From: an uncultured bacterium
Lineage (GTDB): Bacteria > Patescibacteriota > Gracilibacteria > Absconditabacterales > Absconditicoccaceae
Direction: 5' to 3'
NCBI GenBank assembly: GCA_947168815.1
Contig: CAMVNG010000001.1
Location: 186,001 to 250,000 of the forward strand
DNA: 64,000 nucleotides
Shown here: positions 20,173 to 35,620 of the stretch, one piece after another
How the letters are laid out: each line of letters starts with the position of its first letter
Position numbering within the stretch: position 1 is the stretch's first letter
Notes under the pieces: generated by a model
Seen by the model: only the letters and a program-made list of their open reading frames with translations
The model's database searches: none
What the model was told of the DNA's origin: nothing
Program-made: the position numbers and the translations under genes

Positions 20173-22050
20173 TTAAATTCTTCTTTCTTTTCTCTCAACT
20201 CTAACTTGTTCTAATAACTCATCAATTCATAATACATACTGTTTTTTGCTTCTAAATTCTCTTACTGACACAGTTTTACCTTCTACTTCTTTTTCACCAA
20301 CAATTAACACGTAAGGAATCTTCATTAGCTCAGCATTACGAATCTTTTTAGAGAAACTATCATTACTATCATCAACTTTTACTCTAAAGTCTTCCTTTCT
20401 CATCTTAGCTGCTAACTCAAATGCATAATCATTAAATTTATCAGCAACAGGTACTACTTGGAACTGTACAGGAGCTAACCAAAGAGGGAAAGCTCAACCG
20501 AATTGTTCAATCATAACTCACATAAATCTCTCCAATGATCATGAAATAGCTCTATGGATAACAACTGGTCTTTCTTTTTCTCCATCTTCATTTGTGAAAG
20601 AAAGATCAAATCTAACAGGTAAGTTAAAATCACATTGAATTGTAGCTAACTGCCATTCTCTACCAATAGCATCTTTGAACATAAAATCTAATTTTGGTCC
20701 ATAAAATGCTGCCTCACCTATACCAATCTTATATGGTAATTGATATTTTTCAGAAGCTTCTCTTAATGCTCATTCAGCCTTTTCCCATACACTATCATCT
20801 CCTAAGTATTTTCCTTCAGGTCCTCTTACAGAAAGTCTTACCCAATAATCATCAATCATACCCAATGTAGTATAGAACTTTTTAATAATCTCAACAATAG
20901 TTCATACTTCCTCAGTAATCTGACTTACACGACAGAATAAATGACCATCATCTTGTGTAATAGATCTAACACGAGTTAAACCTGAAAGTTGTCCCGTTTT
21001 TTCATCTCTATACACAGTTGCAGGTTCAAAATATCTAATAGGCATATCACGATAACTGAATTGATTATCAGCAAAAATCTGCATATGATGAGGACAATTC
21101 ATAGGTTTTAAGAAAAAAGATTCCTCTTTCCCTTGAACTCTAAAAAGCTCATCTCAGAACTTCTCAGCATGTCCTGACGTTTTATATAAATCTTCTTTAG
21201 CAAGATGTGGAGTCCAAACTCTTAAATATCCTTTATCCTTATGTAATTCCCATAAATAATCTTCAACTTCTTTTCTAATAATCATACCATTAGGTTGTAA
21301 TAATGGCAAACCTGAACCAACCAATGGAGAAATAGTAAAGATCTTTAACTTTTGTCCAAGGATTCTATGATCTCTCTTTTTAGCTTCATCCATCATATGT
21401 TGATAATCCTGAAGCTCTTCTTTTGTATCAAAAGCTAATCAATAAACTCTCACCATCATAACATTATTAGAATTACCTCTCCAATATGCTCAAGCAAGTT
21501 TATCCAATTTAAATGCCTTTGTATCCAATTCTTTAGTATTTTCAACATGTGGTCATTCACACATATCTAAGAAAGTAACGAATTTTCCATTAAATTTTTC
21601 TGGAAATTTTTCTTGTAAATATGAAGTAACCTTCTCATAATATGCGATATATTCTGGATCAATACCTCTTAACAAAGCATCTTTAGCTCCATCAACAATG
21701 GTATTTGCATAGAATGTTATTTCTTCTCAATTAGCAGCAAATTCAGATCTCATTTCTTCCTTATACTTCTGTTTCATAAGATCTACTACTAGTTTTTTAG
21801 ATTCATCATCTGATAAAGAGAACAAAACAAAATCCTGATTCTCTTTAACAATCTTCTCCATTTGATTCTGAATCTTTTTCAAGTCTTCTTCTTTTATCTG
21901 TTTTTCTGAAGAGAACAAAAAATCATAATAGAATCCATTATCGATAGCAGGACCAATAGCAACTTCAACATCCCATTGCTGTTCTCTTTGTACTGCTTGT
22001 GCAAGGATATGTGAAAGAGAATGTCTCTTTCTTAATAATGCATCTTCCAT
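20173..22050 (-). CDS. thrS: Threonyl-tRNA synthetase lacking the TGS domain
   Basis: 625 residues, cytoplasmic; charges tRNA-Thr. The protein begins directly in the N2 editing domain: [12 protein letters not shown] gives the HxxxH pair and DMCEGPHVENT the Cys/His pair that clears Ser-tRNA-Thr. The usual N-terminal TGS (N1) domain of about 60 residues is absent. Class II motifs are clear: motif 2 [12 protein letters not shown] (Cys is a zinc ligand) and the [16 protein letters not shown] segment. The anticodon-binding domain closes the protein ([32 protein letters not shown]). The ATG at 22050 follows a threonine attenuator at 22086-22183, so expression is predicted to rise when Thr-tRNA-Thr is scarce. 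Confidence 0.96.
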
Positions 22051-22085: not shown

Positions 22086-22121
22086 AAACAAAAACCCTTG
22101 ACTTGCAAGAGCTTTCAAAGG
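22086..22121 (-). terminator. Attenuator (leader terminator) of thrS
   Basis: On the minus strand CCTTTGA (22121-22115) pairs with TCAAGGG (22101-22095), 7 bp including one G-T, with a 13-base loop, followed by TTTTTGTTT (22094-22086). It lies between the Thr leader ORF and the thrS start, where transcription would end by default. Confidence 0.75.
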
Positions 22122-22172
22122 AATATTATAAAACCACGAAAACCCTTGCCGAATTAATCGGTTGTGGTGGTT
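22116..22172 (-). promoter_or_regulatory. Competing leader hairpins of the thrS attenuator
   Basis: Two arrangements exclude each other. (a) AACCAC inside the Thr codons (22172-22167) pairs with GTGGTT (22137-22132), enclosing CCGA/TCGG (22161-22149); this leaves the terminator free to form. (b) CAAGGG (22148-22143) pairs with CCTTTG (22121-22116), the left arm of the terminator, and prevents it. CAAGGGTTTT occurs twice, once as antiterminator and once as the terminator's right arm, so the two copies compete for one partner. A ribosome stalled on the Thr codons would cover AACCAC and favour (b). Confidence 0.75.
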
Positions 22173-22183
22173 GTTGTGGTCAT
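22154..22183 (-). CDS. Threonine leader peptide MTTTTTTTD
   Basis: Minus-strand ORF of nine codons: ATG, then ACC ACA ACA ACC ACC ACA ACC (seven consecutive Thr codons), GAT, TAA. It lies 104 bases upstream of the thrS start on the same strand and directly before mutually exclusive hairpins and an intrinsic terminator. This is the layout of amino-acid attenuators such as thrL of enteric bacteria. The repeat is read as Asn/His in another frame, but only this frame has a start directly before the run and a stop directly after it. Confidence 0.85.
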   Translation of the reverse strand: MTTTTTTTD

Positions 22184-22313
22184 TCTCAATACTCTCATCA
22201 CAAACTGAAAAAATTAAATTCAAAATTAGATTAGATTTTTTAAAACATAATGCAAGAAGAAATTAATAGCGAATAATCCCACCCTAATAATTGAAAAATT
22301 ACATATTTTTATG

Positions 22314-23060
22314 CTAACTTATTTTAGTAAACACTTCTCACAATTTATTATGAAAGACTAATTCAGCATAATTATCTTGCGGTGTAGCGTCTTTATTAAT
22401 AATCACAAAATGTCTTCCACGAAAAAAATGAATCAAAGAATTTGCAGGATACACAGCTAATGAAGTTCCTCATAAAATCAATAAATCTGCATTCTGTAAC
22501 GCAGAAATTGATTCATTCCACGCATTAGATGGAAGCTGCTCTCAATAAAGTGTAACATCAGGCCTCAACATTCCTCAACATGAACAATGAGGAACACGTT
22601 CTTTTGAAGTATATAAAATATCAGGATTAAATTGTTTTCAGCATTTATCACAATAGACTCTTTGCGTTGTTCCATGAATTTCTAATACACGTTTACTTCA
22701 AGCTTTTTGATGAAGACCATCTATATTTTGAGTAATAATACAAATATTTCTTCATTGCATCTCCCAGTCTGCAAGCTTCTTATGCGTTATATTTGGTTTA
22801 ATATTTCTACAATCAAGTTTTTGTCTATAATATTCAAAAAATACTTCTGGTTCTTCATAAAGACAAGCATTACTTAAAAGATATTCTGGTTGATAATCAT
22901 CAAATTGAATATCATGCTGATTATAAAGACCATCCTTACTCCTAAAATCAGGAATTCAGCTCTCAGTAGAAACTCAAGCTCATCAGAAAAAAACGATATG
23001 TTTAGCATTATCGATAATTTCCTGAAATTGACTAATAGCCTCCTCTGATATTCATCCCAT
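22314..23060 (-). CDS. Sir2-family NAD-dependent protein deacylase
   Basis: 248 residues. The NAD-binding motif GAGVSTESGIPDFRS is near residue 27. TQNIDGLHQKA carries the conserved NID and is followed by the catalytic His in LEIHGTTQRVYC. The zinc ribbon is CDKC ... CSC, and VTLYGEQLP and ILGTSLAVYPA complete the sirtuin fold. It removes acyl groups from protein lysines using NAD+, releasing nicotinamide and O-acyl-ADP-ribose. Several invariant glycines are TGA. The start at 23060 gives MGGISEEAISQFQEII, the usual sirtuin lead-in. It lies 20 bp after the small membrane-anchored gene 23081, in the same minus-strand cluster. Confidence 0.95.
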
Positions 23061-34972: not shown

Positions 34973-35620
34973 ATGAAAAAAAACTTCAAAAAAGCATTTA
35001 CGTTAGTGGAAATGCTTATCGTTGTGGTTATCATTGGTATTCTATCTTCAGCACTTCTACCAAGACTTCAGGGTGCACAATCTGCAGCCAGAGACTCAGC
35101 TAGAAAATCAGACCTTTCTCAATTAGGTTCTGCTATTCTACAATACTATAACAACAGAGGTGAATATCCTGAAGGATCTGGAGGAACAACAGACGCTGAT
35201 AAAGGAACAAATGGTCACATGATATCAGTTGATAAGATTGGTTGAAAATTAATTAAACTTGTAGAACTATCATCAATTCCACACGATCCAAACAAAAAGA
35301 ATGTTATTAAATGGAAAGCTGGAACATCTTCAGATATTACTCTAAGTGGTGGAGAATATTGATACTTCGCAATGACTAAAAACTCAATACCAAATGGATG
35401 ATATGTTCTAGTTGCAAGAACTGAAACTGAATGAGGAACTAACTTCTTGAATACAATTCCTATCAGTTGAGATTTGTCAAACTTCAAAGCTTGTACATCA
35501 TTCAAAAGCTCAGATATCGACAGTGACTGTACAATAGCAACATCATCAATGCCAACAGACACAAACGGAACATGTTGTTATACATCAAAAGATCAATTCT
35601 TATACTTATATGTATTCTAG
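34973..35620 (+). CDS. Type IV pilin / pseudopilin
   Basis: 215 residues. The prepilin signature is KKAFTLVEMLIVVVIIGILSS: a short basic leader, a Phe at +1, Glu at +5 and a hydrophobic helix. The residue before the cleavage site is Ala instead of the common Gly. The C-terminal globular part has two cysteine pairs (KACTSFKSS, DSDCTIATSS, GTCCYTSK), likely disulfides of a D-region. The pre-helix is followed by AARDSARKSDLSQLGSAI, typical of GspG-like pilins. It would be assembled by the PilB-like ATPase at 27082. The 228-base upstream gap holds no gene. Confidence 0.92.

Follow-up and report, generated by a model that had tools for sequence, protein, structure and literature searches.

A predicted threonine leader-peptide attenuator upstream of thrS in a recoded Patescibacteria genome and its relatives

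Introduction

How does an uncultured candidate-phylum bacterium adjust its threonyl-tRNA synthetase to the supply of charged tRNA-Thr? The question is raised by a short segment upstream of thrS in the window, the whole stretch of 64,000 nucleotides of an Absconditicoccaceae contig that was analysed here. On the minus strand, as the original prediction had reported, this segment contains the reading frame MTTTTTTTD followed by a stop codon, with seven consecutive Thr codons; the sequence behind it had been read as the helices of a ribosome-stalling transcription attenuator. The host genome uses code 25, in which TGA is read as Gly, and encodes a tRNA with anticodon UCA, confirming the recoding that had been proposed for it. 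We describe the architecture of this leader, its folding in three ribosome states and its distribution among relatives, and weigh attenuation against other modes of thrS control.

Results

Architecture of the thrS leader

The leader is a short ORF whose codon run is cognate to the gene behind it, seven Thr codons preceding thrS (Table 1). From the ATG at 22183 the frame runs through the Thr codons to GAT and the stop codon TAA (22156-22154), which lies 103 nt upstream of the thrS start codon. In both congeners, where the leader peptides are MSYSTTTTTTTTTD and MSYSTITTTTTTTTE, the leader ATG aligns with an in-frame ATG at 22198 of the window, and because of this alignment the leader peptide is probably the 14-residue MRVLRMTTTTTTTD rather than MTTTTTTTD. 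ACC makes up four of the seven leader Thr codons (22160-22180), versus 7% of Thr codons in the genome's long ORFs, an excess that may reflect protector pairing. Across all 18 contigs of the genome (1,294,114 bases), only two short-ORF tails have at least five Thr in seven codons, and only the one at thrS has a terminator and a gene behind it. A scan of the same genome for amino-acid runs and terminators found no convincing case of another leader attenuator.

Table 1. Features of the thrS leader and its surroundings in the window
Feature	Position	Strand	Role or basis
Candidate promoter, TTGCAT (22255-22250), 16-nt spacer, TAATCT (22233-22228)	22228..22255	minus	Conservation only
Leader ORF, MRVLRMTTTTTTTD and stop	22154..22198	minus	Alternative start 22183 gives MTTTTTTTD and stop
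Seven consecutive Thr codons, ACC ACA ACA ACC ACC ACA ACC	22160..22180	minus	Regulatory codons; contain protector region 1
Region 2, GCAAGGGTTTTCG	22137..22149	minus	Antiterminator 5' arm; a ribosome on the leader stop is predicted to cover it
GTGGTT	22132..22137	minus	Protector (1:2) partner of Thr-codon ACCAC when no ribosome is present
Region 3, TGAAAGCTCTTGC	22105..22117	minus	Shared between the antiterminator (with region 2) and the terminator (with region 4), which compete for it
Terminator hairpin, GAAAGCTCTTG-CAAGT-CAAGGGTTTTT	22090..22116	minus	Folding; core CTCTTG:CAAGGG kept in both congeners
U-tract, TTTTTGTTT	22086..22094	minus	Sequence
thrS, threonyl-tRNA synthetase (code 25)	20173..22050	minus	TIGR00418, E 1.5e-192

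The protector helix (1:2) includes the regulatory codons. Its proposed pairing, AACCAC with GTGGTT, is right but too short, as GAGTATTG (22194-22187) also pairs. The best antiterminator obtained by folding is a 13-bp helix between GCAAGGGTTTTCG and TGAAAGCTCTTGC. The antiterminator of the original prediction, CAAGGG with CCTTTG, was rejected because it is weaker than this helix and is not conserved in the congener L002, which has CATTTGA where the window has CCTTTGA. An intrinsic terminator, hairpin and U-tract, stands between the leader and the first structural gene, and its main form pairs GAAAGCTCTTG (22116-22106) with CAAGGGTTTTT (22100-22090). The CCTTTGA:TCAAGGG hairpin first drawn here does form, but as an alternative on the same 3' arm that takes 0-0.45 of the ensemble. 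CAAGGGTTTT occurs twice, starting at 22148 and 22100, and its two copies do compete for one arm; this arm is, however, GAAAGCTCTTG and not CCTTTGA. All of the sequence pieces that had been noticed are thus present, while the antiterminator and terminator helices are redrawn and the protector is lengthened.

Upstream of the leader, the TTGCAT-16-TAATCT block is kept in all three congeners and is a plausible promoter on the strength of that conservation, with transcription predicted to start at about 22220. The block is absent from the sigma-70-like sites listed by a consensus scan.

Folding in three ribosome states

Partition functions were calculated with the RNA upstream of the ribosome's leading edge masked. 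Without a ribosome, the long leader (from 22198) folds with a terminator probability of 0.99, and a fold from the short ATG forms the terminator only partially (0.26-0.40). With the ribosomal A site on any of Thr codons 1-7, the terminator probability is at most 0.01 and the 13-bp antiterminator forms. An antiterminator that excludes the terminator is supported both by this stalled state and by the exchange of arms between species described below.

The leader stop is placed so that a terminating ribosome would mask region 2 from its first nucleotide, 22149. For a ribosome positioned at the stop, the main terminator reaches 0.54-0.90 when 10-15 nt past the stop are masked, and the two drawn terminators sum to 0.96-1.0 when at least 10 nt are masked. 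Masking of only 7-8 nt gives 0.25-0.58, and 0.14 was obtained in an automated fold whose 3' end was shorter, so the stop-state result is sensitive to the ribosome footprint. Among relatives, a switch with a difference above 0.5 is predicted for 37 of 52 elements, as against 11 after shuffling of the middle segment.

Conservation and covariation

A covariance model built from the window's SR1 family (R2, cut-off E <= 1e-5) has matches in 25 of the 49 family genomes, six of them outside the training set. All but one of the matches lie upstream of thrS on the thrS strand (24, two of these with an intervening gene); the last is at a contig end. The other 24 family genomes have no R2 match at E <= 1e-5, some of them with thrS at a contig end or with an incomplete assembly. 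Some family members carry the leader further upstream with a gene between, and the element is in part less often missing than it may seem. The best match in the window of a further model, R1, at 35564, looks like an ordinary terminator, and for this reason R1 matches weaker than about 1e-5 were ignored.

In the SR1 genome G062 (locus L331), the Thr leader is separated from thrS by a MutT/NUDIX-like ORF, NUDIX-like ORFs hold the same place in two Gracilibacteria loci (L332 and L326), and a different ORF does so in L342. These arrangements suggest small thrS operons.

Among 166 non-redundant thrS upstream regions from Patescibacteria, a short ORF with at least five Thr in seven codons followed by a hairpin and U-tract was found in 38, and the same test applied to the other 19 amino acids found none (0/166). 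Loci L088 and L106 passed the detector and were dropped as unconvincing.

Arms were swapped between species for 53 elements (41 for the terminator) with 2000 permutations. Own arms pair more stably than swapped arms in the antiterminator (-13.0 versus -8.6 kcal/mol), the terminator (-12.0 versus -5.0 kcal/mol) and the protector (-12.7 versus -10.7 kcal/mol), with 0/2000 permutations as good in each case, and the control pair 1:3 has no effect. Taken by group, the protector effect is significant in the SR1 set (0/2000), weak in Gracilibacteria (20/2000) and absent, that is, not significant, in family f7. In the family alignment, 11 terminator cells are changed on both sides (0/500 shuffles), and the antiterminator is 93% paired, with changes that are mostly one-sided. 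A comparison of thrS upstream regions in relatives, the check that the original prediction had named, thus finds the Thr runs and all three helices conserved, with covariation.

Distribution beyond the family

The thrS leaders of Gracilibacteria are related and begin with the conserved M-x-LAQL(V/E)TTT. A Gracilibacteria-only model finds SR1 thrS leaders (G020 at 2.4e-8, G022 at 4.6e-7 and G061 at 3.6e-6), and the SR1 model in turn detects leaders of Gracilibacteria and f7, with no match in the control thrS regions searched alongside. In L013, L062, L082, L239, L250 and other Gracilibacteria, the nucleotides that encode the start LAQL(V/E)T hardly differ (GCACAACTTGTAACC), which is probably due to pairing of GCACAA with a downstream TTGTGC; the peptide itself could also have a role.

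The Thr attenuator is also present in two standard-code families of the same class, f2 and f7. The thrS frames of f7 are free of TGA, and its leaders include MKNTTTTTTTITE, MKSTTTTTTTTTE and MFAFPAIFTTTTTG. Outside the class, a leader precedes thrS in two further families, represented by G380 (VKNFVITTTTTTTCKSRG) and G544 (MLNFNLNNTTTTA). A phylum-level match in G569 lies away from thrS and looks spurious. Loci L064 and L093 were at first read as standard-code, a reading that was given up; L093 is probably recoded, because TGA stands at a conserved Gly of pyrH.

In two Gracilibacteria genomes (L335 and L336), weaker model matches stand before a thioredoxin-reductase-like gene. At a further Gracilibacteria locus, L334 (G103:C42:2073-2202, minus), an Ile/Leu/Val-rich leader, MNLTQTSILVLVLIYQ, and a terminator precede an acetolactate-synthase-like operon composed of a TPP-enzyme gene and an ACT-domain small subunit; this leader is likely a branched-chain amino-acid attenuator.

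Discussion

Proposed mechanism

Ribosome-stalling transcription attenuation of thrS, as originally proposed, is supported by folding, by the conserved Thr runs and by the covarying helices. The anatomy of the element, its mutually exclusive folds, its linkage to thrS and its covariation are shown computationally, and with high probability, in our judgement, it acts as a ribosome-mediated transcription attenuator, tuning thrS to the supply of charged tRNA-Thr. We infer that the leader is translated, that it responds to starvation, that a short transcript is made and that transcription and translation are coupled.

In the model, RNA polymerase would start some 20 nt before the leader, on which a ribosome would load to translate MRVLRMTTTTTTTD. 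When Thr-tRNA is plentiful, the ribosome would reach the stop at 22154 and cover the start of region 2, whereupon region 3 would pair with region 4 and transcription would end at the U-tract near 22086. When Thr-tRNA is scarce, the ribosome would stall within the seven Thr codons and hold region 1; regions 2 and 3 could then form the 13-bp antiterminator, transcription would enter thrS and charging capacity would rise. Without ribosome loading, region 1 would pair with region 2 and the terminator would form.

Alternative modes of control

The leader peptide may be real and yet act through translation or RNA stability instead of termination. Such control would fit the weak terminator of the window, whose core is short, at 6 bp, and has a G-U ahead of its A:U extension, and which a strict terminator scan does not call. 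However, a hairpin followed by a U-tract recurs across the detected relatives, often in stronger form, its arms covary, and the thrS start codon, 36 nt past the U-tract, lies outside the helices; we consider control of this kind improbable.

In E. coli, thrS is the known example of autoregulation by ThrRS: the enzyme prevents translation of its own mRNA by binding a tRNA-like operator there, and its N-terminal part is needed for this. The gene is the same here, but the signal consists of a Thr-coding frame and a terminator, not of an anticodon-like hairpin over the start codon. Moreover, a Pfam search of the window's ThrRS found only tRNA_SAD, tRNA-synt_2b and HGTP_anticodon, with no N-terminal TGS domain detected. 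Autoregulation of the E. coli type is accordingly very unlikely.

A T-box, in which an antiterminator is stabilised by direct binding of uncharged tRNA-Thr to the leader, is less likely still. Three families elsewhere in the class do have T-box-like leaders in front of thrS (L289 in f2, E 1.5e-8; L292 in f11, 2.4e-8; L295 in f10, 0.009), all under Rfam's gathering score. The window, in contrast, has no match to the T-box covariance model (RF00230) even at E <= 10, a GGTGG-type T-box sequence is absent from the leader, and the conserved feature is the Thr reading frame instead. The view that thrS control here differs from the T-box is thereby upheld.

Least probable of all is that a Thr-rich ORF came by chance to lie next to the terminator of the sirtuin-like gene upstream, which ends at 22314 on the same strand, as the element is unique in the genome and kept before thrS across the family, and as this origin is refuted by the amino-acid control, in which other amino acids give no such element, by the arm-swap test and by the family model matches.

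Relation to known systems

The attenuator favoured here resembles the Thr, His and Trp operon leaders of enterobacteria in its cognate-rich leader peptide, in its protector, antiterminator and terminator, and in the decisive part that ribosome position would play. Those leaders serve biosynthetic operons, whereas a tRNA synthetase gene in Patescibacteria is concerned here, and the Rfam amino-acid operon leader families have no match in this region of the window up to E 10. The T-box before thrS likewise senses tRNA-Thr charging and acts through a terminator, but there the tRNA binds the RNA directly.

Leader-peptide attenuation of an aminoacyl-tRNA synthetase gene is described for pheST (pheM) of gamma-proteobacteria (PMC1262725), which differs in its Phe codons, gene and lineage. 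Other synthetase genes under leader peptides are trpS and leuS (PMC1262725) and alaS (PMC8079986), with leaders in Streptomyces, and the hisS paralogues preceded by a his leader in Bacillus (PMC2965389); none of these involves Thr, and all belong to other lineages. The only earlier claim of a thrS leader peptide that we found is thrL of Streptomyces lividans, a proposed Thr leader peptide, MKRVRPFLETTPGFVPAR, for which termination is unclear according to its authors (PMC8079986). It has two Thr only, as against seven Thr, complete helices and conservation here. In the literature searched, with most subscription journals outside its coverage, nothing relevant was found on leader peptides in Patescibacteria, Gracilibacteria or Absconditabacteria. 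The mechanism is thus classic, and its target, thrS, and its lineage appear undescribed in that literature.

Evolution and significance

The original prediction placed the attenuator in a recoded genome. The host is indeed recoded, but the element is not confined to the recoded code, being found in f7, f2 and the two families outside the class. Since standard-code families carry it, the control predates recoding or is independent of it. Its distribution may reflect either continuous inheritance or repeated origin. Tentatively, and as a reading that we hold to fall a little short of probable, leader-peptide attenuation of thrS could be an old trait of Patescibacteria, older than the UGA-Gly recoding and traded with the T-box between sister families.

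The occurrence of the same switch before thrS in many related candidate-phylum bacteria suggests that an old form of control works in these tiny cells. A conserved and complete attenuator would imply that leading ribosomes closely trail RNA polymerase in these minimal cells, and that Thr-tRNA charging is a physiological signal still monitored by a likely amino-acid scavenger. Families of the class can also be compared with one another at this one gene, some having T-box-like control and others leader-peptide control. If leader-peptide attenuation is an old trait of the phylum, thrS leaders would be a marker of working transcription-translation coupling in reduced cells.
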